Of a stretch of 64,000 nt of DNA, positions 1 through 51,700 are shown in pieces. Both the position numbers and the translations under genes were made by a program. The DNA comes from Hydractinia symbiolongicarpus. Lineage: Eukaryota > Cnidaria > Hydrozoa > Anthoathecata > Hydractiniidae. A model generated the notes under the pieces. That model searched no databases and was not told the DNA's origin. It saw nothing but the letters and a program-made list of their open reading frames with translations. Position 1 is the stretch's first letter. Every line of letters starts with the position of its first letter. Location of the stretch: assembly GCF_029227915.1 (NCBI RefSeq), contig NC_079881.1, positions 17,087,501 through 17,151,500 of the forward strand, written 5' to 3'.

Positions 1-2755
1 CATATGTCTTTTTGATGAATTCTTCATTGTCTGGATTGTCAATCACAGATCTTGCAATAGCATCATTCACCAATTCAATGTTCCAGATCTTTGGCCTTCC
101 GGTGCAGCATGTTGTATTCCTCAATATCGTTTTTGCTGGTGAAGACACCAGCAATCTTTTTTGCAATTTTTAAATCAATGATTCTACACTTTTCTTCTAG
201 CATGTTAAAGAATTTCAAAAAAGTTGCAAGAGAGATATGGAGTACAGGGAGAGCAACCTGGTTGTAAAAACAGTGAGTGAATAACCTTTGTATATTTTAT
301 TAGATTGAATTTTCAACAGCTTTAACATTCAAAGTCTCGCTTCAAAGTATCTAAAGTTCGAAACTCTGAAGCTCCACGATCTGCTAACTGCATCTCAGTT
401 GAAGTGATGTTACAAAATAAACAACAGTGGCGTCCTAAAAATAAAACTTAACATTTTGAATTCCATCTGTTTTCAGGTATATGCCTAACACTTTCGATTA
501 AGTAATAAAGTTTACCATTTGCTCCAGTAAGGCCATAAACGGCACACAAAAATTCATAGTCACCAAACATGAAAACTCTGATTGGATATTGTTTAGTTTC
601 AACTATATATATTATATCAAGTGCCGATTACACCATAAATATATACGCATAATATAAAGCGCCAAGTATAACATAACAGATATCCCCTAATAAGAAAACA
701 AACTTGAATGATCTAAAAAAATATTTACATGATGGTTTGATTTACATGAAGTTAAATTTACCTCCAGTGGCTCAGTTGAAGCTGGTCAATTTGACTTTTG
801 AATGTTTGTAAACCAACTTTAAGATTAACACGGTAATTCTTTGCCTCAAAGTATGAAAACACCACTATTTCTTGTTTGGTTTCTCCACATTACAAACTTG
901 GTAACTCATTTTAAAAGATTTACCACCATGATCTCCACCAATCTTTAAATGTATTTCTTTCTGAAATTCTTTAGGATGCATCACAAAGTTGCTCCTAATT
1001 AAAATAGGAATTACATATAATTCTTTTCTTGGTTGTTAATATCTTGGTATAAGTACAATAAATAATTATTTAATTCAAAAATTTCATTCAACAACAATTT
1101 TTATGAATAGAGATAAAAAAAAGGTTTACTCATGAAGTTTATTCATACGATCTAAGATGTGTGATTTAAGATCTGCTACATATGACCAGGGTGTTGTTCT
1201 AACTTCATATACTCCTTTGTGGTCATTCGATTCCATTGTAAAAGGTGTATCCTCAACAATGTATTCATTGCCAGCCCATGATTGTGCTACATCTCGTTGT
1301 TTGTTGATTGCAGCTGGTTTAATGTTGAATGTCCTTAACCAATTAAAGGGATTAAAACATGTTTGTAATCAAAATATTTACATTTGCAATACATGCAGAT
1401 GATCATAAAATGAATTTGTTTTTAAGAAATAGTTTAAAATGAAAATTAACGAGCCATTGTTTTCAGTTTTTCCCATGGTATTCCAATATCTGCTTTCAAA
1501 GAGACCATGGTTTCTTCAGATATCTCCACTGGTGGGATTTGTGACTTTTTATAATTTCCACTCTCTGTTTTTGTTCAAATGACTGTATCAGAACAGCAGT
1601 CTGGCTTACAGCAGATACTTCATCACTGCCAGAAATATTTATTATGTTATTTTGAACATGTTTATTCCTATTTCTGAGGGTACGTTGTGATGCAATGCTA
1701 CTGGCTTTGTATGCTTTCGGTGTTGATGTAATGTAAATTGGCTAAAGTAAAATGTAATGCTGGAATAAATATTCATTTTTAAAAACATTGTCTGAATATA
1801 TACAAGTTTAATGTTTTATGATTTTGAAAATATAATTATTGTAATTTAGAACTGCTTACCCGAGGACCACCAGATTTGAATTCTGCAATTTTCGAGCTGC
1901 TACTGGCTAATTTCTTCTCAATAATATGCAGAGTCGCATCTTCAACTTCCCTTGGAATCGATTCAACATCATTAATTCTGAAGATGTCATTAACAGTGAT
2001 GGCAGTTGGTGTTTTTTGAAAGCAAAGACTTTCATGTTCTTGTCTGCTCTTTTCATCATGCACATTAAATGTAGAACCACATGAATTTTTGCAGGCAATC
2101 ACAATACACTTTAGCATGTCAGCTACGTTTACAGATTTTTCAATTTTTTGAAAATTAGTGCCACACACTGGACACATAGGCCTAGTCAATAGTTTTCACT
2201 CAATCTTGGGCAGGATGCAGTTCATTCAAAATGAATGCTGGCATTTTTGAATGTATACAGGAAATTTTTGTATGTTATTACAAATATTGCATATGCACAA
2301 TTTAAGATAAGGATTTATTTCATTATCCAAATTTTCTACATTGTATATATTGTGTGGAAAAGTGTCAATGTAATTGTCCTGAATTTTTTGCAAAATATCT
2401 CGTGTCCATTTGGCGTTTTCTAATTTTGTCCTACGACCTGAATTGGTTTTTTTAATGTGTCTACCACGTTTCATGGGATCACATGTAATACAGTTTAGGG
2501 AGGAATGTGGGGTCCATTCTGCCACTTTAAAGTCTGCTGAGAGTGTTGATTTTCTAGTTTCAATATTTCTCATTTTTGAATAGCAGTTTAGGCACATTTT
2601 GGTGGGATGTACACAGGTTTCGTCATTTACTGGATCTATATAGAATGCAATCTTAATCCTTTCACTCAATTTCCGTACGTCCATTTTGTCTTTCCCTAAT
2701 TTTTTGGCACAAATACGACAAAACTTAGGTTGTTTGTGTGTGTCTGGTCAGCCAT
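1..2755 (-). pseudogene. RAG1-like transposase gene, broken, 3' end outside window
   Basis: Seen: on the minus strand a series of exons translates into a protein that follows the RAG1 layout. Exons with plausible splice sites are 2755-1860, 1741-1451, about 1341-1130, 994-762, 602-516, 434-327 and 257 to beyond position 1. The first exon has the N-terminal zinc-binding pattern (CRICAKKL, VRKLSERIKIAF, VHPTKMCLNC) and a RING-like finger. Later exons carry KIGGDHGGKSFKM and FGDYEFLCAVYGL, then GRHCCLFC joined across an intron. Family knowledge: RAG1 and RAG-like transposases are DDE recombinases; the Asp codons at 931-933 and 559-561 fit the first two catalytic positions. The third acidic residue would lie left of the window. 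Breaks: two in-frame TGA codons in the first exon, frameshifts near 2727, 1560, 875 and 85, and some mismatched exon phases. No RAG2-like partner is visible. I read it as a decayed RAG-like transposon gene; an assembly artefact could explain some breaks. Confidence 0.85.
1860..2755 (-). other. First exon of the RAG1-like gene: N-terminal zinc region and RING-like finger
   Basis: The best start is the ATG at 2755-2753, followed by MADQTHTN; a one-base slip in the CA-rich stretch then links it to KFCRICAKKL. The region matches the RAG1 N-terminal region (Cys pairs, HPT-x2-C-x2-C) and then a zinc finger with C-x2-C, C-x-H and C-x2-C elements (CNIC, CQH, CPVCG). Two TGA codons lie in the same frame at 2226-2228 and 2196-2198; the first falls exactly where the finger needs a zinc-binding Cys after CQHSF. 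The exon ends with a good donor (GTAAGC at 1859-1854) directly after a GGPR motif, a glycine-rich basic patch also seen in RAG1. Confidence 0.8.
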
Positions 2756-3720
2756 CTTGAATATCCTGTAGCTAGCCTTCCTCTTCAATTTCGCTTATAT
2801 CTTTTGAAAAAAACTGTTAGGCTCCTGATTTCTTTTGATTTGCTCAGAAAATAGATCAATTATGGTTAAAAAGTCCAGTTTTAATATGCAAAAAAATTTT
2901 TTGTGCTGTTTTGGGGCCTCAAATTCGGTGTTGTTTCAGTCTCTTAGACTCGATTTGAATTTCGCGCTATAAATTTCCCTGAGCGTTCAAAGTCCATATT
3001 TTTTTATTTTCTGACGCCCTGGTCACACTTGCGTCATTTAAAAGAATCCAGGGTTAGCTCTACACTATATATTTACTACAATACAGTAAATAAATAGGGG
3101 TTGTGCAGCCACGCTTGTGCTCGCCCGGGAGGCAGAAATGAGGAACCTCAGAATTTAAATTTTGCGCATGCGCATAAAATATTCCATGTTTTCAGCGGAA
3201 TGAAACTAACGTGGATAGTGAAAAAAGCAATAAAATAAATAAATGATAAAAAAATTCGTTCCTAAAAGTTTTTTTTTTATTTTAATGTTATTATTTGTTT
3301 TAATTAGTTTTTAAATAAATTAAAAACAAAATTGTTGTGTTGTTTGTCTTTTTTTTCTTCAAAATGAAAACCGTCGGCATGGCCTATGAGTATCAAAATC
3401 AAGATCACCAGTTCCCCTTCATCGATGGTCTGCTTTATACGCGTAACTTATACAGGGCTTGTTTAATTGAGACAACATGGCTGATTGTTGCTAAGATATT
3501 TCTTTACATGAGGAACTGAAATGTTACGTGGAACAGAATATGGAACGGTCAGAGTTAAGTTGACTTTATTCAAAAGCTGTATCCACAATACTGCTTGAGT
3601 TTTCCAGCGACAGGCGTTTGAAATTTTGTCAAATAAATTATGTCGACAATGCAACACAATTGTTAGGAAAGCTGTTCAATGTGACAAATTACTTGATGTT
3701 GCGCCATGAATCATAAACTC
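2756..3720. other. Upstream flank of the RAG1-like gene, no gene seen
   Basis: AT-rich sequence with T- and A-runs. No convincing exon on either strand. Read on the minus strand, 3220-3211 gives CACTATCCAC, which resembles the CAC-type start of RAG/Transib terminal repeats, but without the other end this is only a candidate. Confidence 0.3.
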
Positions 3721-3729
3721 AGAGCGAAA

Positions 3730-4570
3730 CATAATTTTGTGTTCCTAGGAATCTTGTAGCAGATATGTTATTCGATTAAGATCCAGATGAAGTGGGGTGT
3801 AGAAATGTGAAAAAAAAAATAAAAAAAACATTGAAAAGACCGTTTATTTCTGATGGCCAGGATCGACTTTTTCTCTTGGTGGGCATGACAAAATGATGGT
3901 TTTCTAGAAACGTTTTTCAGAAAAATAGTTTTTCCTGACCCAATTTTGATTGGAAAATTCTATACTGAGTATCTTCTAGAAACAAAGAAATTGCCTATGT
4001 ATTTACTCACGGATCGTTGAAGGGGACTGGTTTAATGGCAATGGCATACTTAGTTGACAAGTTCTGCGATCTGGAGGACAGCACTAAGTGAATTGAGTAT
4101 GCGAAATCAACCTCTAACAAAATAGAAAGAAGGTGGAAGGATTTGCATGATTGGTTGATTATCCTATTTGTATGACCCAAGTTGAACATTTGATCGTAAA
4201 ATGCTATCCTATATTTTTAATCCTGTACTTCAAAGAGAATGTGATACATTTTGTCGTATGTGAAACTCTCAGCATAAGGGATCAATCAGGATAAGAATTA
4301 CGAACTGGAATACCTAATCACATGTTTTCCTTCCCACAAAATTATAACCCTAAGGAAAAACATATCAACGTAACTGAGGAGTCTTGGGAGGAAGTAAGTG
4401 AAGTAGAAAACATAATATGTAAATGTAATAAAGTACATAACGATGCAGTGCCTTGTTATATAAATATATTCAACAAAAAGCACTTTAAAGAGCAAAATAC
4501 CAATGTCTCCCTACAACAAAAACATCCTACAATATATCGTATTGTTATTTTTATAACAAAATAAGAACAA
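3730..4570 (+). pseudogene. Decayed integrase-core (DDE) transposase-like remnant
   Basis: Seen: patches of protein-like sequence in changing plus-strand frames. A segment with the pattern DPDEVGCRNVKKKIKK followed by a DGQDRLF-type patch (about 3776-3890) is followed by AKSTSNKIERRWKDLHDW (about 4098-4160), LQRECDTFCRM (about 4230-4260) and PNHMFSFPQNYNP (about 4312-4350). Family knowledge: this order resembles the animal integrase-core proteins found in repeats, where a Y-R/K-S-T-S/A-N-x-R-I-E motif follows the third catalytic region. Every patch is separated by stops or shifts, so no product is expected. The family call rests on a few motifs and is tentative. Confidence 0.35.
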
Positions 4571-4589
4571 AAATATCCACCTAATAGCA

Positions 4590-4990
4590 TAATATGTAGT
4601 TTTACAATTTTCAGTCTTTGTCCTCCTCTGATTCTATTTCTATTTCTGTTAATGACGGAAGTTTGCAAACAGGTTGCATTTGTGCTGGCTAAAGAAATTA
4701 TTTCATTCAAATTACCAGAACAAAAATATCGTTTATTATCCATTTCTAGGTCATTAGACGTAGCAATCTCAGGATCTTGGGCATTCTTGATTTGTGAAGT
4801 GGGTCAAACATTTAGCTTTAGCATACAAAGCCATTTCAACAGATACGTTAATTTGTACTGGCACCCCATCATTATTAATGTACTTTTTAAATTCCTAGGC
4901 ACAAAGGGTTTAACAGTTACCGGTTCATTCATAAGATTTGCAAACTAAACATTATTGTGAATAAAAAATGTTCAAATTTCAAAGATTTTC
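4590..4990 (-). pseudogene. Unrecognised decayed exon-like region
   Basis: On the minus strand, after an AG at about 4953, protein-like sequence runs through NEPVTVKPFVPRNLKKYI, VPVQINVSVEMALYAKAKC, then DNKRYFCSGNLNEI and an acidic tail EIEIESEEDKD followed by a stop. At least three frame changes are needed. I do not recognise the family. It may belong to the neighbouring integrase-core remnant on the other strand or to a separate element. Confidence 0.25.
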
Positions 4991-11582: not shown

Positions 11583-13442
11583 AAAATACTTTTACGTATT
11601 TGTTATTTCTATGTTAAGCGTTTTTAATCACTCTATCTGACTATCAGGTTAAAAAAATATTTTCCTATATAAACGGAGGGGTTGCATTCGAGGGCTGAAA
11701 TATGCTGATATCAGCACCACATTTTTTCGAAATTACCCAGGGTTCCTCGACGTTGTTCATCATATTACGCAACTTTAGCAAAGAAGACTGCTGACGGTAA
11801 TTTTACGTCACATAATACGCCATGTTTGCCGCGTTTTTTATAGTTTTTTATACCGCGGACACCAATATGGCTGTAGGGACTAATCGGTTTGAAATTAATT
11901 TACAATATTTATATTAATATATTTCATAAAAAAAACTTTTTCTGTTTAGGTGTTTTTAATTTCCTGCAAAAAAAGGCGTTGTATAGCTTATGTGATAATA
12001 GGGTAAGAATGGAAAATATACACATTCTGCGGGACATTGGTTTTAAACCTAAAAATTCTCAGCAAGAAAGTTGAATAATTATAAATCACAAAATCACAAA
12101 AATTTATCTTAGAAAATCTTAATTTTAGATAATGCAAAAGAAATCCTTGTGAAATTTTGTTTGATGTTCTTGTAAAAAGAAATACTTCACACTGCGTATA
12201 TGGGGTAACTTAATGAACAATAAAATTTTCCCAGATGTTCTCAGATATGTTTACTATAAGCTAAAAACTGTGATGTAATTTTTCTCCTAAATTTTGACTG
12301 TTAAAGCAGCTAAAGAGCTCGGTCTTAGCTATAGCGAAAAAGTTTAATATTTAATTATCTAGTATCAACTAATAAACGCTAGTTTATTCCTAAATCTAGC
12401 CTTAGGGTAGCTAAGCTACGTGTAAGAACAACAGCAAACAACGTCGAGGCTGTTCTCTTTTGTAAACATACCTGGTGGTATTTTGTATAAGTACCAAATT
12501 TTATTTGTACACTTCTTGTGCTTATGAGTGAAATCAAAGTGCCCAGTACGTAGATCTGAAAAATTTATGTCATTGTCTCACTCTTTACGAATAACACCAC
12601 GCAACAATGAAACCGTGCTTTGCTATTTCCCGTAACCTATACCGAGATTTTGTTGTGAGACATAACAGAATTAATTGTTTTTAAATTGTCGCTCAAAGCT
12701 ACCATTAAATGAAAATAATTTTAAATTTTGTTATTCTGCCAGGTGATTCTGTGATAATATTATAATCCACACCCTGGGAACAAAATACAGAAAATAGACA
12801 ATCTGTTTTTTACGTCACAATTTATAACTCTATAATTATTAAAAAAACAGGAATCAATTAAAGGACCCCTTTTATAATATCTAAATCAATTAACACATTA
12901 TATCAACCGAAAGGCGCCATGGGGATGGCTTTGAAATCGGCTTAGAGAGTAATTACAAGGGCTCCAAAAAGATTCAAGTAAATTGTTATAAGCATTTTAC
13001 AGTCTTTAAAAATAATTTTTTTTAATTAAATTTTCTATAGCTATATTCGAAATTAGAAACGTTTTATTCTTTCGGTGGTAAAGTAAGCAAAAGTCTGGCA
13101 AACATATTAAATATCAGTAAAATCGTGAGTTTGTTTTAACAAGCAAACAAAGACAATATTAGGAGCTTAAATTGTTAAAAAAATGCTATGTTACTAGATT
13201 AAAAACTAATACTTTTCCAACCCCGTTGAACCCCTTAACAAAATGTTTTGCATTTAAATAATTTTCCCTTTCCTAAGCACTATTTTATAAATATTGTAAC
13301 TAAAATGTTGTCGTAATTTGTTTTCAAATGTGATTGTTACTTATCAAAGGTCTGACAGACACGAAAGAAGTCGTACAAGCATCTGTCGAAAAACATTTAG
13401 ACCTGTATAACTGGATACATCAATTCTTGCATCAATTCTTAC
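11583..13442. other. No gene recognised; may hold the last exon(s) of the transporter
   Basis: AT-rich. The transporter gene upstream on the minus strand ends in a splice donor, so a C-terminal exon should lie here or further left, but I could not identify one. Confidence 0.3.
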
Positions 13443-14583
13443 TTTCTGAATAGCTTTGATGTTGCGATGACACCAGCTTGGAAAATGCAACAACTAAAAA
13501 CAATTGTTCGCTAAAATCGACAAAAATTGTGGTAAGAAGGTATAGCAGTAACATGGCGACTTTGATGCTGAAAAATAGATGAACAGACACAAATATATAT
13601 TGGCAAGTCAATAATATGACCAGGGAAACCTGTCCTAATACTCCAATCCAGAAAACAACCACAGATCCGGTTTTGGTTTTAATGACTACAAGACAAGGTA
13701 ACAAGAGTCCGATACCTTGGAAGATAAGACCAGCAGAAATCCATTTGTACGACATCAATAATACATTCAGCACAAGAAAGGGGAAATTTCTGCCAGATGA
13801 GATGGAACCAATGACACTGGAAAATGTCAAAGCAAACATAAACATTAAAACTTTTGATTTAAACGCCTTTTTTACGACTTTAATACCATTGCTCTTTGAA
13901 ACATCTCCTATTATAGAGGATGACTTATCTGTAGATGCTGCTTCCTTCATATCATATTCTCTTGATAAATCATGCGCAAAACACACAACACAGCATTGTA
14001 TACAGATGATAGTAACGAGGAGAAGAATACCTGATATATTTCCATATCCAACTCGTAATTGACCGAAACAAAAATCGATTTCTGCAAACGGAAGTACGAC
14101 ACAAGGTCCAATCATAAATCCTAATGTCGCTGATACAATTAGATAGGCAAACTTACTTTGTATTTCTTCAGATGGGTATGATCTTGCTGTTTCACCGATA
14201 ATTAACGGTTGTAATATAATAACACATCCATTGAGGAGTTTCCCTGTGAAAGGAAAGAGCGGAGACACTGAAATAACGTATAAAATACTGCCTAACATGG
14301 ACACAAAATTTATAATGATAATAATCAGCTTAATACGTCTTGTTTTGTCAGCGAATCTTGCCACTACGGAAGATAACAGAAATGGCAGAATATAAACTGC
14401 AGCGCTTATTAATCCATAATACAAAACGGGTTGATTAGTCTTCATGAGTTTTGTTAAGTAAAACCACAACGTAGCCGTGTTTATACTTTTCTCAAATTCA
14501 GCGAAAAAATATAATAACATATATACAAAGAAGGTGGTTTTTCGTTTCTGCTCCCATTCTTTTATATCAACCAAATTATTCAT
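13443..14583 (-). CDS. MFS transporter, MFSD8 (CLN7)-like, main exon
   Basis: An intact reading frame of about 380 residues from ATG at 14583-14581. It starts WEQKRKTTFFVYMLLYFF, followed by alternating hydrophobic helices (about 10 membrane segments). Family traits seen: FADKTRRIK after helix 2 (the MFS loop 2-3 signature), GETARSYPSEEIQSKFAYL after helix 4 and LGFMIGPC in helix 5, the order found in MFSD8-like proteins of the major facilitator superfamily. Family knowledge: MFSD8 is a lysosomal membrane transporter/chloride channel about 500 residues long. Here the frame stops early after SQHQSYSE, but the bases A|GTAAGA at 13443-13437 make a good donor, so the remaining helices probably lie in a further exon. 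Substrate unknown. A partial duplicate sits at 11468-11582. Confidence 0.75.
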
Positions 14584-14879
14584 ATCTACACTTTGGTGTG
14601 TTAACGTGATATGTGCCTTCGTAATGAGGATACGTTCTTAAAGAATGTGTGTTTCAACCACAATTTCATTTTTGAGTAATTGTTTGATTGGATTTAGTTA
14701 ATTACAAACTTTACATATATTTTTTAGCTGTCATTCTTTATCTCTGTTTAATACTTCATAATGAACATTAATTTTTAGCTTTATCTTATTTTTGATCCTC
14801 ATGTCATACAAAGCTGTTTCCGCGGATCCTATTAATACAATATAATCTGATTTGTACCATGGTTGATTTGGGAAAACTG
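14584..14879. promoter_or_regulatory. Upstream flank of the transporter gene
   Basis: AT-rich flank that should contain the promoter; no specific element can be named. Confidence 0.25.
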
Positions 14880-17519: not shown

Positions 17520-18105
17520 ATTTAAATTACAATTCTGTTGAATTATCTCGCGATTTGAGTAATGAAAACTGGGATTCAGTTTATGCTGAACGAAATCCTA
17601 ATAACGCCTGGGATACATTGAGAGATATTGTAAGTCGGAATTTCAACACGCATGCCCCAAATATTACCAAAAAAGTCAAGGGTAAAAAATCACCATGGTT
17701 GACACGTGATATAAAATCGGAAATGAATTACCGAGACACGTTGAACAGAAATTTTCGTAACTCAAGAACTCCCACTGACTTTGAAAAATTCAAGAGTCAA
17801 AGAAGCAAAGTAAATAACCATTTTAGAAAGGCTAGAAACGAACATAGTAGGACACTCCTGCAGGAAACGGCAAACGATCCTAAACGATTTTGGAAAACAT
17901 TGAAAAGAACTTTTCCCTTAAAAGAAAAAATCTCAACAGTTAAATCTTTTATTATTGACGTCATAAGAAACTCAAATGCAAAATCTATCGCATCACGTTT
18001 TTGTTCTTACTTCTCTACCACCGTTTCGAAACTGAAAGCCAAGGCAATGCCACTGAAAAATTTCATCTGGGCAAAACCGAAGGAAAGTAATTTGAAAACA
18101 AGTAC
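17520..18105 (+). pseudogene. LINE linker between endonuclease and RT
   Basis: Basic, Arg/Lys-rich open segment typical of the region between endonuclease and RT in CR1/L2-like elements (KSPWLTRDIKSEMNYRD, KSQRSKVNNHFRKARNEH, DPKRFWKTLKR). The frame must shift by one base near 18100 to continue as EFTEVTVNEVFMHLKKLKRS into the RT. Confidence 0.75.
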
Positions 18106-18144
18106 TACCTTGAGTTCACTGAGGTCACAGTTAATGAAGTTTTC

Positions 18145-19617
18145 ATGCATCTCAAGAAACTCAAACGTAGTAAGGCTTGTGATTCTGCCGATCTCCCACC
18201 AGGCATGTTGAAAGACAGCGCAAAACACTTAGCAAAGCCTCTTTGCCATGTCATCAATGCCTCACTAAGATCTGGTATAATACCGTCCGATTTCAAGCTG
18301 GGACAAGTGACGCCCATTCACAAATCAGGACGTAAAGATGACATGGACAATTATCGTCCAATTACCGTCTTGCCTGTTTGTTCGAAAATTCTGGAAAAAT
18401 GTATTCACAACCAGTTATGTAAATTTCTAGAACAGAAGAAACTGTTATCTGAAACTCAATATGGCTTTAGAAAGAAAAGAAACACGGAACTTGCTGCCAC
18501 ACTATTTCTTGACACAATAAGAAGGAATTTAGACAATGGAGAGTTAACTGGTGCATTCTTCATAGATCTTAGCAAAGCTTTTGATTCGCTAAGTCACGCA
18601 CAAATCATTGAAAGCCTGAAAAGTCATAGTGTTAGAGGAATTGAAAAGGAACTTTTCATTGACTACCTCTTTGGTCGGAAGCAAACTGTGAAAATAAATA
18701 ATGAAACATCTGAACCTGAGTCAGTAACCTGTGGTGTACCGCAGGGCTCGATTTTAGGTCCCCTTTTATTCTTAATTACATTCAATGACATTGGCAGCGT
18801 CCTTTCAAACTGTAAAATACTGACATACGCTGATGACACTGTCATTTATGTTTTTGGTAAAACAAAAGATAGCATCGAAAAATTGTTGACTGATGACTTC
18901 AATCGTGTTACAGACTGGCTCGAAATGAACGATCTTGTTATAAATATGAAAAAAGGGAAAACGGAATGCATGCTGTTTGGCACTACCCAACGTATCAAAA
19001 ATAAAACCTTGGATATAGATTATCGGCATCAATCACTCTCTTTCACCAACTCCTACAAGTATCTTGGTGTAAAATTGGACCAAACTCTTTCACTATGTGA
19101 GCACATCGAGTCGACATACAAGAAAGTTAGAGGGAGATTATACTTGCTTCAGAGAATCAGACCTCAGTTAACCATCGAGACTGCATCAACAATTTACAAG
19201 ACCATGTTGATACTAGTTTTCACGTATTGTTCAATCATTACATGTTATTCTAAGACGACGTTTCAGCTAAAGTTGGAAAATTTAGAAAAGCGAGCAAATC
19301 GTATTATATTCAAGAAAAACGTGCCAAGAAAATCTAAACCAGCATCAATTAAAAATCTGTTAAGGAAACGTCTTTGCCTTCAAGTTTTCAAGTGTGTTCA
19401 TGGAGACGTGTGTGAAAACTTTGTAAATTATTTCGAAAAAATGACAAACAACACAAGAAATAAAAATCATTTACCACGACTTCCTAAGATTAAGCTGGAA
19501 TCAAGTAGAAAAAGTTTCTTTTTTAATGGTGCAAAAACTTTCAACGAGCTTCCTCTGAAAATACGTGCTTCGAAATCAATAGAAGATTTTGTAAAATTAT
19601 ATGAAGATTTTTTTTAA
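18145..19617 (+). CDS. LINE reverse transcriptase domain, frame intact
   Basis: 490 codons open. RT motifs in order: VTPIHKSGRKDDMDNYRPI (residues about 55-73), motif A FFIDLSKAFDSL (about 140-151), motif B GVPQGSILGPLLF (about 197-209), and motif C YADD at residues 228-231 (18826-18837). A C-terminal part with YLGVKLDQTL (thumb) and a conserved FFFNGAKTFNELP tail follows, as in CR1/L2-like elements. Catalytic Asp residues are present. The start codon shown is internal; the true protein starts upstream at 16787 and is broken there. Confidence 0.9.
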   Translation: MHLKKLKRSKACDSADLPPGMLKDSAKHLAKPLCHVINASLRSGIIPSDFKLGQVTPIHKSGRKDDMDNYRPITVLPVCSKILEKCIHNQLCKFLEQKKLLSETQYGFRKKRNTELAATLFLDTIRRNLDNGELTGAFFIDLSKAFDSLSHAQIIESLKSHSVRGIEKELFIDYLFGRKQTVKINNETSEPESVTCGVPQGSILGPLLFLITFNDIGSVLSNCKILTYADDTVIYVFGKTKDSIEKLLTDDFNRVTDWLEMNDLVINMKKGKTECMLFGTTQRIKNKTLDIDYRHQSLSFTNSYKYLGVKLDQTLSLCEHIESTYKKVRGRLYLLQRIRPQLTIETASTIYKTMLILVFTYCSIITCYSKTTFQLKLENLEKRANRIIFKKNVPRKSKPASIKNLLRKRLCLQVFKCVHGDVCENFVNYFEKMTNNTRNKNHLPRLPKIKLESSRKSFFFNGAKTFNELPLKIRASKSIEDFVKLYEDFF

Positions 19618-21890: not shown

Positions 21891-22377
21891 TTTTTTTTTT
21901 AATAAACGTTAATTTTACTTGATATTCTTGTTTGCCTGGGTAGGTACAAAGGTTGCAATGACATGGTGATTTAATGATGCAATTACAGAGAGTTCATTTT
22001 TTTAAATCAGATACAGTCCGATGATGAAACTGATACTGACTTGTTTGTTTTTAAAATAACAGGATCTTTCCATAGCTTCAGACCTTGCGAGCTTGGCTTT
22101 ATAATTTACAGTGCTATATCTGAACAGATCGTATATTTTATTGATTACCTTATCGGACAAAGAATGTCGGAAAAAAGTGACGAAATTTTTCGAAGGTGAC
22201 GAAAATTTTATCGGACGAAAATTTTGTCTGACGAAATATTTTGTTCAAACGTAGCTGGAAATTTTGGTCATGTGTGATAAAACAAAAAATATCACCTGAA
22301 GAAAATTATGGGATAAGGCAATAAAACAGTAATTTCGAAAACCATATTTATTTTTTAACATCTAAAATGACTTTCCA

Positions 22378-22564
<187 letters not shown>

Positions 22565-22579
22565 CTACAGCATCGAATC

Positions 22580-40131: not shown

Positions 40132-40350
40132 AACGTCAATGTAGAAAGTAATTTGATTGGAAAATGACATTTTCCCTCTATGTTGAAATTAATAATTGTA
40201 TGCGGGGTTAAACTGTCAAGTTTGCGCGGGATCACAAAAAACCCTGATAGAATTGTTTGGAACTTTTTGTTAAACAAGGTTCAAACTAAAATAAATACAC
40301 AGAAAATATGAAAATATGAAAGAAAAACACAACGCTTAAATTTGAAATGA

Positions 40351-40354
40351 ATAA

Positions 40355-40453
<99 letters not shown>

Positions 40454-40714
40454 ACAAATAAACAAATAAACAAATAAACAAATAAACAAATAAACAAATA
40501 AACAAATAAACAAATAAACAAATAAACAAATAAACAAATAAACAAATAAACAAATAAACAAATAAACAAATAAACAAATAAACAAATAAACAAATAAACA
40601 AATAAACAAATAAACAAATAAACAAATAAACAAATAAACAAATAAACAAATAAACAAATAAACAAATAAACAAATAAACAAATAAACAAATAAACAAATA
40701 AACAAATAAACAAA

Positions 40715-40808
<94 letters not shown>
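40351..40808. repeat. Compound microsatellite (AAAT)n-(AAACAAAT)n-(AAAT)n
   Basis: About 100 bp of AAAT units, then about 260 bp of the 8-mer AAACAAAT, then about 97 bp of AAAT units. Open frames across it (LFIYLFI, LFICLFVY) are artefacts of the repeat. Confidence 0.95.
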
Positions 40809-40809
<1 letters not shown>

Positions 40810-41681
40810 CAAATGTATATCAACTATTCTTTACACGGCTTGAAAGGATGAACATTGTGACTGTTTAACTTTCTTGAACTTCTTTAACAGACGCAAATTT
40901 ATTTGAAATTTGATAAAACAAAACTTCGTAACTTTTGTGTTTGAAACTTGATTTGAACTTGTTACTTTTTTTGAGCGGGAATGAAAAAAAAAACGTGAAA
41001 AAACTACATATATAAATTCTATCAATAAATATATCACACTTGCACATTAACGAACATAAACACAAGTTAATTACACAATACACCATAAAATAACAATAAA
41101 ACATGCACGTAACAAACATATTGAACACGAAACGAACGTATACTATCTTATAACACGAAATCAACACAAATCCAGTGTTACTGTACACAAACACGATTGG
41201 GTTCAAAGGAATAAATGAGTTTCTGGAAAACTAGTAACGCCATTTGATACGAATTGTTGTTATGAAGTGAAAGCAGCACTTGCAATGGAAAGCGATACCT
41301 ACGACGAAGTGTGTATAAAAACAAACTTATATTATTTTCAAGGAAAGTTGGAACCTGATAGCGAACGTGTTCTGATCTCAGTGTCTGTTTTTCCGTATAG
41401 AATAACATTTATACAACAACAGACGGTCACAACAATATGCGCAATTCACTGCAAATATTTAACCTAATTCATGTCGGTGTATAGATGGTCTAATATACCT
41501 TATCCTCGTAACTTCCCTTGCCTTGGATTGTAAAGCATAAAACGTGGTACAAGTAATGCCGGTCGCATGACAATTAAAATTCATCTCTGAAATGATGCCT
41601 GACAGCAATAACTTTTAAAATTAGCATTTTTGTTAAAAATTTAGCGTTCAAAGGTGTTTTTTTTCGGCATATGTTTCTTGC
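40809..41681. other. No gene recognised
   Basis: AT-rich spacer between the microsatellite and the Penelope pair. Confidence 0.4.
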
Positions 41682-42043: not shown

Positions 42044-44240
42044 TTAAACGGATAAATTGATGATGCAATGCTTAACTTGTTTATTGAGGTCTGGTTTCAA
42101 CCAAGAAATATGCATACTCTCTTTGAGTTTCCTCTGCCAATCAGTGTCTGCATGATCCAAAATAGAAAAACAATTTTCGTTACATAGTAATTTGCAGTTA
42201 AGATTTGACTGCATATGCTTAAATATTTGTGAGTTTTTATCAGTTTTCAAATGTTTTTTAACTCTACTAGAAATGTGCCTGGTGGTTTCACCCACATAGC
42301 TAGCATTACAACTAGCACAAACAAATTTATACACAAGTCCAGATTTAAAAGATTCAGGAACTCGGTCCTTGCAAGAAAAATAATCTTTAATTTTACACGA
42401 CTTAAAAACGAGGCACACATTGATTTCTTTACACATCTTATTGACAAGTTGATTGACTTTTTCTTTGGCAGTAATAGAGTACTTGCCAATAAAAGGCAAT
42501 TTAAAATACCTCTTTTCTAATACATTAGTTGTCTCTGTACTGACAGCTGTAGAAAAATTCTTATCAAGGTAATTTGAAATGTGGCGGTTTACCAGTTTTG
42601 TAGGAAAAAAGTTTTTTCTCAAAATTTCAGTCAGAGCCTTAATATTAATGTCAAAGTGTTTCCAACTGTTGTTAATTTTGAAAGTCCTGTCAATTAGTGT
42701 TTTAATGAGACCTATTTTATATATTTTGGGAGTGAAACTAAAATAATTAGTTAAAAGGCCAGTATAGGTTGACTTATGGAACACAGAAGTATAAAATTTG
42801 TCACTGGTGTTCTCAATTAAAATGTCAAGAAAAGGAAGTTTACCATCAACTTGTTTTTCTAAGGTAAATTTTATATTAGGGTGTCTCTGATTCAAGTATT
42901 CAAAAAAGGCCAACGCTTCACTTTCATCGTTAAATAAAGCAAAGATGTCATCCACATATCTACGGTAGTATGTTGGGCCACAACCCGAGTAATTTTTTAT
43001 CCATTCCTTTTCTTTAACGCCCATGAAAAGATTCGCTAAAATAGGTGCCAGCGGCGAGCCCATGGCAACACCATCGACCTGTTCATACATTTCATTATTG
43101 AACAAAAAATTCGAGGATGACGTTGCAAAAACGAATAATTGTTTTAGTTCAGATTTTGTGATTTTGAGTTTACGATTTCCGGCAATTACAAGTTGAACTG
43201 CAAGATCTAATGTTTCATACAATGGTATGTTCGTGAAAAGACTACAAACATCAAAAGAAACCATAAACTTGTCGGATTTACTCACCTTTTTTAATTCCTC
43301 AACGAAAGTGAAAGTATCTGCAGTACAGTAATCCTTGGGAATTACATCAGATAATAAACCACCTAAAAACTTGGCAAGTTGATAGTTACAAGTGCCTATA
43401 GAAGATATAATAGGCCTAAATTTAGGTAAATTTTCAAAAGATTTATGCATTTTAGGAAGGCCGTATATTCTGGCCGGTTGAGAACCACTGGGATATATAT
43501 CGTTGTACACTTTGTCACTAAAAAAAACCTTTTTTCTTTAAATTCCTAAGAAAACGTTGTAACTGTCCTTCTCTCTTCAATGTTGGATCTTCGTCGAGTT
43601 TTTTAAATTTAGTAGTATCTAAAATGATATCCAAGATGCCTTTTTCATAATCCTTTCTGTCTAAGATTACTACCCCATTTCCCTTGTCCGGCTTTAAAAT
43701 AACAATATTGTTTTTCTTCAACTTTTTCAGGATACCATGTTTTTTGATAACTTCGCGACTGGGTCGGTAATCGTGGTAATAACTGTTCGCAATATGTGAT
43801 AGGCTGGACTTTAAAAGATTATCATCATTTTTATCTTTCAAATTTGAGGACATAAATCGATAAATCATTTCAAACGAAACAAACACATCTGTTTTCCTAA
43901 GTGTTAATGGTGGAATGGCAAAAGACAGACCATTTTTTAAAACTTCACTCTCATCATCAAGCAAATTGTACGAAGATAAATTGGTGACAATTTCGTCTGC
44001 TGTAAACGGTGGTGCGACGTTTTTAGTTAGACTTCTAAGTTTCTTCTCTTGGGTAAAAATGCATTTTCTAATACTTTTTTCAACACTTTTCTCGGCTGCT
44101 TTCCGTAAAATATAGAAATCTATAGAATTCAAGGTATCACTAAGAGATTGGACGTGATTTACATAATCTTTTCTTAACTTGATTCGTTCTTTTTCTCCTT
44201 TGTGAATGGCACTTTTCAGTAAGGGTTTACGTATTATGCA
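42044..44240 (-). pseudogene. Penelope-like RT and GIY-YIG endonuclease, left copy
   Basis: The coding region is open from the centre (about 44240, CIIRKPLLKSAIHKG) through an N-terminal part with LKPDKGNGVVILDRKDY to a stop at 43518, where a run of eight T residues shifts the frame by one. It then continues as 488 codons: RT motif A SFDVCSLFTNIPL, motif B GVAMGSPLAPILANLF, motif C RYVDD, and a C-terminal GIY-YIG nuclease with a Cys pair (YKFVCASCNASYVGETTR). Family knowledge: this domain order defines endonuclease-bearing Penelope-like elements. With seven T residues the frame would be continuous. This copy reaches further 5' than the right one but lacks the last 46 bp of the 3' end. Confidence 0.85.
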
Positions 44241-46256
44241 TTTTTACCCAAGAGAAGAAACTTAGAAGTCTAACTAAAAACGTCGCACCACCGTTTACAG
44301 CAGACGAAATTGTCACCAATTTATCTTCGTACAATTTGCTTGATGATGAGAGTGAAGTTTTAAAAAATGGTCTGTCTTTTGCCATTCCACCATTAACACT
44401 TAGGAAAACAGATGTGTTTGTTTCGTTTGAAATGATTTATCGATTTATGTCCTCAAATTTGAAAGATAAAAATGATGATAATCTTTTAAAGTCCAGCCTA
44501 TCACATATTGCGAACAGTTATTACCACGATTACCGACCCAGTCGCGAAGTTATCAAAAAACATGGTATCCTGAAAAAGTTGAAGAAAAACAATATTGTTA
44601 TTTTAAAGCCGGACAAGGGAAATGGGGTAGTAATCTTAGACAGAAAGGATTATGAAAAAGGCATCTTGGATATCATTTTAGATACTACTAAATTTAAAAA
44701 ACTCGACGAAGATCCAACATTGAAGAGAGAAGGACAGTTACAACGTTTTCTTAGGAATTTAAAGAAAAAAGGTTTTTTTTAGTGACAAAGTGTACAACGA
44801 TATATATCCCAGTGGTTCTCAACCGGCCAGAATATACGGCCTTCCTAAAATGCATAAATCTTTTGAAAATTTACCTAAATTTAGGCCTATTATATCTTCT
44901 ATAGGCACTTGTAACTATCAACTTGCCAAGTTTTTAGGTGGTTTATTATCTGATGTAATTCCCAAGGATTACTGTACTGCAGATACTTTCACTTTCGTTG
45001 AGGAATTAAAAAAGGTGAGTAAATCCGACAAGTTTATGGTTTCTTTTGATGTTTGTAGTCTTTTCACGAACATACCATTGTATGAAACATTAGATCTTGC
45101 AGTTCAACTTGTAATTGCCGGAAATCGTAAACTCAAAATCACAAAATCTGAACTAAAACAATTATTCGTTTTTGCAACGTCATCCTCGAATTTTTTGTTC
45201 AATAATGAAATGTATGAACAGGTCGATGGTGTTGCCATGGGCTCGCCGCTGGCACCTATTTTAGCGAATCTTTTCATGGGCGTTAAAGAAAAGGAATGGA
45301 TAAAAAATTACTCGGGTTGTGGCCCAACATACTACCGTAGATATGTGGATGACATCTTTGCTTTATTTAACGATGAAAGTGAAGCGTTGGCCTTTTTTGA
45401 ATACTTGAATCAGAGACACCCTAATATAAAATTTACCTTAGAAAAACAAGTTGATGGTAAACTTCCTTTTCTTGACATTTTAATTGAGAACACCAGTGAC
45501 AAATTTTATACTTCTGTGTTCCATAAGTCAACCTATACTGGCCTTTTAACTAATTATTTTAGTTTCACTCCCAAAATATATAAAATAGGTCTCATTAAAA
45601 CACTAATTGACAGGACTTTCAAAATTAACAACAGTTGGAAACACTTTGACATTAATATTAAGGCTCTGACTGAAATTTTGAGAAAAAACTTTTTTCCTAC
45701 AAAACTGGTAAACCGCCACATTTCAAATTACCTTGATAAGAATTTTTCTACAGCTGTCAGTACAGAGACAACTAATGTATTAGAAAAGAGGTATTTTAAA
45801 TTGCCTTTTATTGGCAAGTACTCTATTACTGCCAAAGAAAAAGTCAATCAACTTGTCAATAAGATGTGTAAAGAAATCAATGTGTGCCTCGTTTTTAAGT
45901 CGTGTAAAATTAAAGATTATTTTTCTTGCAAGGACCGAGTTCCTGAATCTTTTAAATCTGGACTTGTGTATAAATTTGTTTGTGCTAGTTGTAATGCTAG
46001 CTATGTGGGTGAAACCACCAGGCACATTTCTAGTAGAGTTAAAGAACATTTGAAAACTGATAAAAACTCACAAATATTTAAGCATATGCAGTCAAATCTT
46101 AACTGCAAATTACTATGTAACGAAAATTGTTTTTCTATTTTGGATCATGCAGACACTGATTGGCAGAGGAAACTCAAAGAGAGTATGCATATTTCTTGGT
46201 TGAAACCAGACCTCAATAAACAAGTTAAGCATTGCATCATCAATTTATCCGTTTAA
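44236..46256 (+). pseudogene. Penelope-like RT and GIY-YIG endonuclease, right copy (5'-truncated)
   Basis: Begins inside the N-terminal region (TQEKKLRSL). It runs to a stop at the same T8 run (44772-44782) and then on as a 488-codon RT plus GIY-YIG frame (44790-46256). YVDD is at 45342-45353. Apart from VKE instead of VKK in the nuclease part, the protein equals the left copy. Because both copies share the frameshift, it was present in the source RNA or element, or a consensus error affects both. The 5' truncation is typical of target-primed insertion. Confidence 0.85.
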
Positions 46257-46667: not shown

Positions 46668-48792
46668 TATTTAAAATAAGTATTATTTTGTTATTTTGAG
46701 TGACATTTCAACTTTTTTACCACAATTCATTAACAATTAGAGTCCAATTGGATAAAGTATAAAAAAAAAATTGATACATTTTTTAAAAGAGATATAGCCT
46801 TTATAATGTGCATTATGCAAAAAGATCAAAATCTTCAAAAAATATCACATAGAACATGATGGGCGTGGCATATCTGCTCGAAATTTTCATAAATTTTCTT
46901 TCTGTCAGGGTCATTGAGTTAATGGTTGTAATTTTATCGACGAAAGTTCGTTATTCGTTTTTTATTCGTTCAAGGTATTCTAGATAAGGTACCTGTATGA
47001 CAGCTGGGATATTTTTGCCTAAAAGATCGTTTCCACTTACGACCAATAAATTATTTAGCTGCATGAGCTTTTTCTTTGTTTTTTACATCACTCTATTAAT
47101 GTTTTTTTCAGTACAATCTAAATTACACACATTTAGATATTCTGTTCCCAAAACTACATTTAGGTTTAAAATAAAGATTCGACGGTAAATTTACTCCTTC
47201 AACCTTGACCTGCTCAGAGCTTTAGTTCCAATGACGTTAAATTTGATTGTAAAGTAAACCGTCCTTAACATGGCGTGTAAAAACGCTGATGAACTGAAGT
47301 GTCAGTTGACGGGATAAAGTATAAGTTGATATTTTTGTTGGCAAAGAAAGCATTATTATTTGTTTAACAACATAATATTTTGGATCGTTTTCTTAATCTT
47401 GTTTTGCTTAAGATGATTTAATAAAGATATAGAAATGTGTTTACTGGTGAAAAGACGTGACTATCTAAAATGCTTACCATTATTTTCTGTTGTGTGTGTG
47501 AATTACAAAGACAGTTGGAAATATTGATAAAGGAGTCGTTAGTTAGTTATTCTATTTCTCTATTATAATGTTTATGCATTTAACTACATTTAACTGTATC
47601 TTGTTTCACGACCGAATGCTTTCTGTTCTTCGTTTGTTATAGGGCAGTTGTTCGTTTTGTTTAAACAATTACTATAATAGTATGTCTTGCCTGTCAGTTT
47701 TTTTTTTTTTTGCACTAAAAACACACAAAATAATTTTGTCTGTAGTTTCTAGCTGTATGAATGATATCAGTATTCTGTTTGTTGGCCAAGTGATATATAT
47801 TTTTACGACTTTAGTGTGGCAACGCGCACATAGAATGCACACCAACGCGCATAAAAAATAAACTTATTTAGCGACCTCAAAGACTTAACAAAATTAATTA
47901 AAGTAGACTCTCTGTCTCTTAACTCGAACACCTCCTTATTTCGAATAATTATTTTTGTCCTGTAAGTACTTTTCTATCTCTAACTCATACTTTATGACAT
48001 GTGAGCTTTAAATGCTTATGGAAGCGGCAATCGAACAAGTTGACGTAATTCGAATGTTATAAAGGATTCGAATGTCAATTGAAAGTAATTATAAATATTG
48101 TAGTGAATGTTACAGAACAGATTTCAAAATAGAATATTCTTACACGGTAGTGAGTCTTTTCTGACGATAGCAAAATAGTCTAAGCTTAATATTTGACCGC
48201 TGATTAAAACAACATGTATGGGATATACATTATTTTAATCAACATTTCGAGTCGTACCAAATGAAACAGCAGCTACCAAGTTTATCCAAAAAAGTTCTTT
48301 GTAAAAGGACCACTAACCATTTTTTGCTGAATTTGGTGGGTTACACGGACCAATGAACTGATGCTCAAGTTGTGTGTGTATGTCTGTAACAGACAAAGTG
48401 AATATGTTCATTTTTTCGAGCCGCAGAAACTGTTACCAAACATGGTCCTTTTCTGGACTGTTCTAAAGTTATTAACAAAAATGTGCCAGGTAGGACTTTT
48501 TAACTCTCCCCCGGAATGAATAGGGTTAATTGGTTCTTAACCTTAAATGTGTAGGTTCTGTCGCCTGAACTGTATTTTACCCCAACTAAATTCTCTGCTT
48601 GTACATCACTGATTAGTTATTCTTTTTCTGTAAACAAATATAAAATTAATTGATCAAAATTGTATCAAAAATAAAGTCAGTTTATGTAAGGATTAGGAAA
48701 AGTGTAAAATAAACAAATCTATTTCGTAGTTGATATTGTATATAATTATTGCTTTTTACTTTTAGTTATTTTCTCAGTTCATTTAAAAAAAT
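46668..48792. other. No gene recognised; upstream region of creatinase
   Basis: AT-rich. Near 47905-48100 there are TCGAACACC / ATTCGAATG motifs that recall a decayed pogo-type MITE. The promoter of the downstream gene should lie near its right end, but no element can be named. Confidence 0.35.
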
Positions 48793-51700
48793 ATGTTTTC
48801 GAAATTCCGATTTATTGTACCAGCTTTGCGATATGCAAAAAAAGCGTCAGCAGGTAAAATGATATCAACAGCGTCCTTAACGTCTGATTTCCCTGCATTG
48901 GTAGATTGTAGACAAGGCGAAAAGACTGGTAGCTTGTTCAGTAAGACAGAGATGGAGAGGAGACTCTCAAAGCTTCGCGAAACAATGGTCGCGAACAGTG
49001 TTGACGTATGCGTTTTCACCTCTTACCATAACATTGCATACTACAGCGGATACTTTTACGTTGCATTTGGGCGTCCTTATGGACTAGTTGTTACTATGGA
49101 TAGCCAGACAAGCATTTCAGCAAGTATGAATTTTGTTATATTTAATTATTGCATATTGACTTGTAACATATGTTTTTTTTATTTTTGCATACGTAAATAA
49201 CTGTACAAGCAATGTGCTATGATTCGTATTTTAATCCTTCTGTATTCTTAACAGTAACATCTAAAGGTAATTTCACTTTGAAAATTAACAGACGGTAATG
49301 GAAAGCTCAACAACTTGCAATTCCGAAACAAACGTTTTGCATTCCTTCGTTTATTTAGGACATTCGTGCTTTACTGTCACTTAGTGCAATCTTCGTCTCA
49401 ATGTTTAGCTTTTATTTATTTCATTTCAATAAATAAAAAAAGCTATGCTGTACAAACAAAGGAATGTTATTTTAAGTAAGCTAAGATAATAGCTTAAAGA
49501 CAAAAGGTAAATGAACTTCTGCAAATTTGACTTGTTTGGTTAATAATTAATGATAGAGGTCGATTATGGACTAGCGTGGAGGAGAACATACGGAGACAAT
49601 CTTACGTACACCGATTGGCAGCGCGATAATTACTACAAAGCCGTACAGCGTTGGCGATCGCAAGAGAATTGGACTTGAGTTTGATCATGTTACTTTGCAG
49701 AACATGGAAAAATTCAAAGTTGCTTTACCTGATGCTAGCTTTGTTGATGTTGGTGTTCCAACCATGGAATTGAGAATAATTAAATCTGATGAAGAAATAT
49801 CTCTTATTAAAAATGGTAAGAATGCTTATGCAAAAATGGTAAGAATTTTGCCAACGTGTATTAGATAGCAGATAAAGTCGTACAAAATCGGTCAGATTCT
49901 TTCTCAATAGTGATTAAAAAAAGCAAAAAAATTGGAGCACAATGTACGCCAGGGTGCTTTGCAACAAATATGCATTTCACAATAAATACTATTCCCCGGA
50001 ATAGATCGAAAACTGAGAAAATTACGACCTTTCCGATGGAAGGTTAAAAGTGCCGCCGTCGTGATCATCAAACGTATAATAAGTTGTTTTACGTCAAAAC
50101 TTAGTTTTTTTATAATTTAAACCTGAACGTTCACAACGAATTATCCCGCCTTGGTGATTCACACTGCTTAAAAGACTCATTTCAATTCGACTACATTGTC
50201 CACTATAGTATTCCGTTTAAAAACGTAAACTTCTTGGATATAGCAAAAAATGAAGTCAAGTCTTAAGGCTTGAAGCTTTTAAGGCTTACCATCGTCCTAA
50301 CATGGGTTGCACGAAGCTAAGTGAGAACCAGCTTTAACTGTTGCAATTAACCAGCTTATAAGAAAGAAACCAAATGTTTGATTTTTTTGGAATTGTTTAA
50401 GTAACGTAATTTATTTACATTTATTATTTTATCGTTACAGGAGCAAAAATAGCAGAAAAGGGTGGAGCAGTGTTAAAGAACGCCATACATGAAAACGTTG
50501 CAGAATATAAAGTTGCACAAGCTGCAACCAATGCGATGATAAACGAGATCGCAGCGACATATCCTTATGCAGATATTACAGACAGTAAGTAAGAAGCTCG
50601 TTTTGTTGGTTTGGCAATAAAAGAGAAAATTTATAGCGACCAAACATTGCGCTATTTTCACGGGAAACGGGAAGTCTGTGGAGGTAATAAGAACCAGATA
50701 TTTTGTGACGCTGTAAAGACCGACCATTTTATATAGTTTTTGGTACGGTAAATGCTCTATTAAACGCTGGCTTAATATTCTATCTTCAATAAACACCTCG
50801 CTAAAAAATTAACGAGTAATAAACGCCCGTCTTTTAAACGCCCGTCATCAACAAAGCCTGTTCCTAATAAACACCCATCTATAATGAAAACCCGTCTGTA
50901 ATAAACCTTCGTCTCTAATAAACGTCCGTTTCTAATAAGCGCCCGTCTCTAACAAACGCCCGTCTCTAATAAACGCCCGTCCCTAATAAAAATCCGTCTT
51001 TAATAAACGCCCGTCTCTAATAAAGAGTGTTTGTTAGATTTTTTTTCAATCCAAGAAATTTATTTGTGATGAATTATGATGAAGATTTACTTCTGTCAAA
51101 ATATGAATGTTCAAAATTTTTAGTTTTAGCATAATCCCTATTAAATGCGACATAAGAATCTTGAAAATTGAATAAACCGGGGGCGTTTATTAGAGCATTT
51201 GCGGTAATCAAGCAGTGGGTAAGTTTGCAAGCACTTACAGATCTCTCATATTATCTAATTAGGTATATTATATATTTTTAGCATGAAATTTGCATTGTAT
51301 TAGACAAGTATAAAGGAGCTGGGAAATTAAAAGTTTATAAGTAGTAATGCTTTTATGAAATATTAAACCTCAAAAGATGATGTTTTGGCTTTGATAGGAT
51401 AAAGAAAAGCGTAGAAATGGTTTAATGTATTCACGAAATTTTTCTCGACATTCTAGCATGGTCGCTTGTGCAGACCGGAAGTAACACAGATGGAGCTCAC
51501 AACCCAGTCACTACACGAAGAATTCAAAATGGAGACATTATTTCAGCGAACTGTTTCCCAGTGATAGGAGGGTAAAGTATTAATACATATTTGTCAACAT
51601 GTGACATCTCAAATCATATTTTGTGCTATTACCCTCTCTCTCTCTCTCTCTCTCTCTAAGTGGTATGTTCATGATATGATAAAAACGAACCGATTCGTGG

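Follow-up and report, generated by a model that had tools for sequence, protein, structure and literature searches.

In Chapaev, a group of DNA transposons with animal hosts that include cnidarians, the transposase has an N-terminal zinc domain (Chapa), in some subgroups a RING finger, and a D-D-E core. This architecture is already in print (Kapitonov & Koonin 2015, PMC4411706, in a passage that cites Kapitonov & Jurka 2007 for the Chapa and RING domains). The C(2)C, LH and H(4)H motifs are published marks of the Chapaev core (PMC4079192), and C(2)C and H(3-4)H are described as common to EnSpm, Mirage, Chapaev, Transib and RAG1 (PMC12730594). Canonical Transib differs in having no N-terminal half (PMC4411706). 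RAG1L-RAG2L pairs have been reported in two corals and a jellyfish (PMC7204232). The N-RAG-TP transposon of Aplysia shares with the element described below a RAG1 N-terminal-like sequence inside a transposon, but is described as N-terminal-like throughout, whereas the Hydractinia element has a full core after it (PMC8355894).

The window analysed here, 64,000 nucleotides of the hydrozoan Hydractinia symbiolongicarpus (C7:17087501-17151500; assembly of 481 Mb in 76 contigs), opens with an element of this kind. Window positions 1-3213, read on the minus strand, are in all likelihood the 5′ portion of a cut-and-paste DNA transposon of the Chapaev group that is now dead. The architecture is known; the Chapaev families and the Hydractinia host are new. 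Neither RAG1 nor CMC appears in the main-text passages of the Hydractinia symbiolongicarpus genome paper (PMC11067881).

The window copy and its intact sister

The initial annotation, made from the letters of the window alone, had recognised on the minus strand of positions 1-2755 the motifs CRIC, VRKLSERIKIAF, HPTKMCLNC, a RING-like finger, GGPR, GGDHGG and FGDYEFL, and the motifs, their strand and their order are all as it described. An intact sister copy has ten exons; in an alignment with it, these pieces correspond to exons 1-7, with 90.7-100% identity over the aligned parts (Table 1). Since exon 1 passes the Pfam cut-off for RAG1_imp_bd (38.3 bits, cut-off 23.3) and exon 4 that for DUF1280 (E 5.9e-6, 26.5 bits, cut-off 25), the motif match is more than chance. 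A single-sequence comparison of exon 1 with the PDB returned three sequences at E<=10, all of them RAG1 (best 21wb_A, E 4.1e-4). The RING pieces of the window copy, within which both in-frame stops of exon 1 fall, stay below the Pfam RING cut-offs, and the RING of the sister copy exceeds that of zf-C3HC4. This RING resembles many RING proteins about as closely as that of RAG1.

The disruption of the window copy (Table 1), of which the initial annotation says nothing, continues in exons 8-10, to the left of the window start. Exons 8 and 9 have each lost one base, and exon 10 is shortened where another transposon inserted; its remnant contains the third acidic region, GEQGGE, found in the direction in which the initial annotation had placed the third catalytic residue. 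The inserted transposon has a DDE_1 domain (L008, about 2240-4890, left of the window) and looks pogo/Tigger-like by eye. A terminal repeat had also been anticipated. The element begins with its left (5′) terminal repeat at 3213 rather than at 2755; no right end of the window copy was found. The left terminal block recurs in four other copies (L040, L041, L046 and L048) with different flanks.

Table 1. Parts of the Chapaev-like element in the window
Feature	Window position	Strand	Description
5′ (left) element end	3164..3213	-	CACGTTAGTTTC as terminal block; 28 bases from the end, GGAATATTTTATGCGCATGCGC as inner block
Exon 1	1860..2755	-	Chapa/RAG1_imp_bd, RING, GGPR; disrupted by a 4-base deletion and two in-frame stops
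RAG1_imp_bd (PF12560) match	2415..2666	-	RAG1-type N-terminal zinc region (Chapa); E 1.5e-9
RING finger region	2163..2291	-	broken; intact counterpart in sister copy is residues 157-199
GGPR motif	1860..1871	-	end of exon 1; from motif reading and family alignment
Exon 2	1450..1741	-	1-base deletion relative to sister copy
Exon 3	1130..1342	-	no indel or stop relative to sister copy
Exon 4	762..994	-	5-base and 2-base deletions; contains GGDHGG (922-939), the first catalytic Asp motif
Exon 5	516..589	-	aligned part, 96%; contains FGDYEFL (547-567), the second catalytic Asp motif
Exon 6 remnant	328..434	-	covers 54% of the exon and includes C(2)C (412-423)
Exon 7	1..257	-	26-base deletion; continues past the window start

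A DNA search of the genome gave at least 58 matches, among them copies or fragments that lie on several further long contigs; twelve places among these matches were compared, besides the extended window copy. Eight copies or remnants (the window copy, L040-L044, L046 and L048), which align end to end or over large parts, make up family A. The most complete, L040, lies on the same chromosome as the window (C7:27287885-27292892, 5,008 bp). It has CAC...GTG ends, a 4-bp target duplication (TTTA) and one transposase gene, whose ten exons, joined across nine GT-AG introns, encode 968 residues with no stop. The claim of a single gene with both a RAG1-type N-terminal half and a catalytic core holds, since this sister copy joins the two in one frame. 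For a RAG2-like partner there is no space in L040, with 460 and 573 bp outside the coding region and a largest intron of 284 bp.

An intact left terminus, CACGTY, is present in five of the eight family A copies; that of L044 is TACGTC, and L042 and L043 have lost theirs. The right end is also present in five, reading inward CACGTT in four and CAAGTT in L042. Both ends are intact, forming CAC...GTG terminal inverted repeats, in L040, L046 and L048, the last of which is internally deleted to 797 bp and flanked by AGCC duplications. L044 and L046 have both ends and no target duplication; their common flanks indicate that they represent one duplicated locus.

Domains and catalytic core

In the spliced L040 protein, DUF1280 (E 6.8e-15), RAG1_imp_bd (9.7e-9) and zf-C3HC4 (7.6e-6) are each matched over the cut-off. 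The RAG1 core profile PF12940 has no match in this protein at E<=10, so that of the RAG1 profiles with which the initial annotation proposed to check the gene, the N-terminal one (PF12560) matches but the core one does not. A search of the genome with PF12940 gave nothing at E<=0.01, with the controls equally silent. Among 18 family members scanned at E<=0.01, several of them partial predictions, DUF1280 is found in 15, the C3HC4 RING model in nine and RAG1_imp_bd in five.

Relatives of the protein are widely distributed. A first homologue search found 22 proteins, including ones from Hydra, Patiria, Diadema, Antedon, Strongylocentrotus, Asterias and Branchiostoma, those of Hydra being 40-51% identical to the spliced protein over the aligned parts. 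A second found 11, namely one already known, eight new ones with DUF1280, an N-terminal piece (P0031) and a RING protein of Xenopus. Most of the named ones are called 'uncharacterized protein', and no RAG1-named protein is in either list, the search reaching only relatives that share short exact words. One of the new proteins from the second search, P0029, combines RAG1_imp_bd, RING and DUF1280, and its scpid identifier is of the type used for Sycon ciliatum (PMC6526912), which makes it probably a sponge protein. If so, the architecture also occurs outside Cnidaria and Bilateria. In a quick tree of 30 rows of these relatives, from which P0028, P0031 and P0032 were omitted, the spliced protein falls within the Hydra rows (starred 95), and P0029, on a long branch, has no secure position. 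The GGPR motif occurs in the cnidarian-type rows of the family alignment and in a variant form in the echinoderm rows.

The core motifs were checked in nine proteins. The C(2)C motif lies 19 residues after GDY, and H(4)H is present in all nine. The GGD motif is exactly 70 residues ahead of the second Asp in eight of them, P0002 being the one without GGD. Under strict patterns, GEQGGE and LHI.LG each fit seven of the nine. An alignment of 18 rows shows no variation at the His of LH, at the two Cys or at the two His. The protein therefore has a D-D-E core with the C(2)C, LH and H(4)H motifs of Chapaev. The core fold predicted for P0001, a relative 43% identical to the spliced copy and modelled in place of the window's own protein, is RAG1-like, with RAG1 the closest structure in the PDB.

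Chapaev and the alternatives

On the evidence of sequence, the element is very probably a Chapaev by architecture, motifs, ends and target duplication, as compared with published descriptions of Chapaev rather than with named Chapaev sequences. It shares with Chapaev (PMC4411706) the N-terminal Chapa, the RING, the D-D-E core and the choice of host. CAC...GTG ends are found in L040, L046, L048 and three further families (B, C and D, described below), the exceptions being L044 (TAC), the right end of L042 (CAA) and some lost ends. Target duplications fit the 3 to 4 bp of Chapaev in L040, L048, L052, L054 and families C and D, and are lacking in L044 and L046. The differences from the Chapaev of PMC4411706 are the new Hydractinia families and an end asymmetry of 10-11 bp that its passages do not describe.

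The initial annotation read the gene as a RAG1-like transposase. That reading stands for the N-terminal parts and for the predicted core fold of the relative, but the gene is not a RAGL or Transib gene. A copy of a RAGL (RAG1-like/RAG2-like) transposon would account for the RAG1-type N-terminal zinc region and RING and for the nearness of the P0001 model to RAG1. It is nevertheless very unlikely, since the spliced protein matches DUF1280 and, at E<=10, not PF12940, no RAG2-like gene fits, and the end, CACGTTA, is unlike a CACTATG/CACAGTG-like heptamer. The duplication also speaks against the 5 bp of RAGL: L040 and L054 are 4 bp only, L040 having no 5-bp reading within one base; moving the right end one base into the terminus would also give 5 bp in L048 and L052. 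Compared with RAGL and ProtoRAG (PMC7204232, PMC8289069), the Hydractinia element is alike in its RAG1-type N-terminal region, its RAG1-like predicted fold and its asymmetric bipartite CAC ends, and unlike in having no RAG2-like gene, a 4-bp rather than 5-bp duplication, another heptamer, a core unmatched by the RAG1 Pfam model and inner spacings other than the 27/31 spacers of ProtoRAG.

Transib was considered and set aside: its transposase is core-only, and a RAG1-type N-terminal half is present here. Transib duplications measure 5 bp, compared with 4 bp in the Hydractinia element.

The remaining alternatives have still less in their favour. The stops and frameshifts between the pieces of the window copy could suggest a RING gene and a transposase gene that are neighbours by accident, but the sister copy links both in one frame across GT-AG introns, and single predicted proteins from Hydra, from echinoderms and probably from a sponge have the domains in the same order, which leaves accident almost no probability. 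A domesticated host gene derived from Chapaev would explain the intact reading frame of one sister copy, yet it is extremely improbable for an element that is present in multiple copies, some of them internally deleted, that has ends and target duplications, and whose window copy is broken. Bilaterian contamination, a possibility named by the initial annotation, might be suspected from the echinoderm and lancelet relatives; it can be dismissed with near certainty because copies or fragments lie on several other long contigs, the window's own contig measures 33 Mb, and the nearest named relatives are in Hydra.

The host is the non-bilaterian that the initial annotation supposed, and a single gene with both halves in such a genome had been expected to bear on when they were joined. 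Since the element is most probably a Chapaev, no RAG2 fits in it, and RAG1L-RAG2L is already reported from cnidarians, the window copy alone does not date that event. As an outgroup to RAG1 the element is useful: it combines the N-terminal parts of RAG1 with a predicted fold like that of RAG1, has no RAG2, and is found in a cnidarian. The chromosome-scale genome and the complete sister copy add to this value.

End geometry, a candidate mechanism and the rest of the window

The part worth following is the asymmetry of the ends. The inner block of family A, GGAATGTT..TTATGCGCATGCGC, starts 28 bases from the terminus in six of seven left ends and 17 bases in all five right ends; the exception, L043, has it at 29, with the terminus lost and the start guessed. 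Family B consists of L052, L054 and the truncated L053; compared exon by exon, its protein is 34-83% identical to that of the spliced copy. Here GAACTTCAGA lies at 29 on the left and 18 on the right, and both two-ended copies have 4-bp duplications (L052 AGAT, L054 GGCG). Family C, read across two 99.9% identical duplicates, the left end from one and the right from the other, has its inner block at 29 and 18 and the duplication TAAT; a third copy repeats the right end. Family D, one copy whose kinship is known only from two short DNA matches of 76-80%, has its inner match at 26 and 16 and the duplication TGAA.

An offset of 10-11 is the best of 61 tested in each of the four families, with scores of 24, 11, 21 and 19 and a second best of at most 7. 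The observed inner-block match was reached by 0, 1, 0 and 0 of 2000 shuffles in families A, B, C and D, a test of the matching and not of the offset. Against this reading of the ends stand the offset of 10 in family D, as opposed to 11 in the others, and three further loci at which ends were sought and not found. Because their end sequences are related, the four families do not count as separate origins. By comparison, the nonamers of RSSs begin 19 and 30 bases inward (7+12 and 7+23). Spacers are 27 and 31 in ProtoRAG (PMC8289069) and 4 and 13 in AanRAGL (PMC9435367). Asymmetric ends are described for RAGL and some Transibs (PMC8289069, PMC9435367); passages of the literature searched contain no mention of a 10-11-bp asymmetry for Chapaev.

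In the predicted mechanism the transposase, as a dimer or a higher multimer, would bind the ends of its own element. An NBD-like segment beside GGPR would read the inner block, and the RNase-H-like D-D-E core (D490, D560 and E912 or E916), in which C(2)C and H(4)H would form the zinc site, would cut next to the terminal CAC and, with a stagger of 4 bp, join the ends to the target DNA. By analogy with RAG1, Chapa and RING probably serve in dimerisation, nuclear import or ubiquitin ligation. Since the inner blocks lie about one helical turn apart (17 and 28 bases in family A), the two ends may be bound differently, as RAG does with 12- and 23-signals.

A broader proposal, tentative and rather unlikely, is that Chapaev transposases pair two unlike ends, with the inner block about 16-18 and 26-29 bases from CAC and read by the NBD-like domain. 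The one-turn-asymmetric bipartite signal and the fusion of N-terminal half and core would then be older than RAGL and Transib and common to animal Chapaevs. Should the asymmetry prove functional, V(D)J signals and their 12/23 architecture could be tested in a lineage outside RAGL and Transib, with consequences for a published proposal in which asymmetric bipartite ends were ancestral (PMC8289069); invertebrate RAGL has been argued to be relatively insensitive to end asymmetry (PMC7204232). The asymmetry could also be inherited without function, or the inner block could bind a host factor.

A GCGCATGCG-type palindrome is present in or adjoining the inner block at the ends of families A, B (left), C and D. 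It resembles the NRF1 site, and a host factor rather than the transposase might therefore bind there.

Several other features were observed in the window. Two near-identical 497-aa ORFs at 42047-43537 (minus) and 44763-46253 (plus) lie in inverted order and, together with upstream ORFs that also match, form a palindrome of about 4.2 kb; the plus copy, the one tested, contains RVT_1. A 508-aa ORF with RVT_1 at 18091-19614 (plus) is a retrotransposon remnant. The single-exon ORF at 13435-14637 (minus) is MFS-like, below the Pfam cut-off, and its 15 matches consist of the window's own, four from Hydractinia (33-58% identity) and ten others. Exons at 48787-53335 (plus) resemble one peptidase M24 gene, Pfam having been applied to exon 52811-53335 only. 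Long low-complexity repeats at 40284-40830 and about 22366-22570 have LFIY-type and IY-type translations, respectively.
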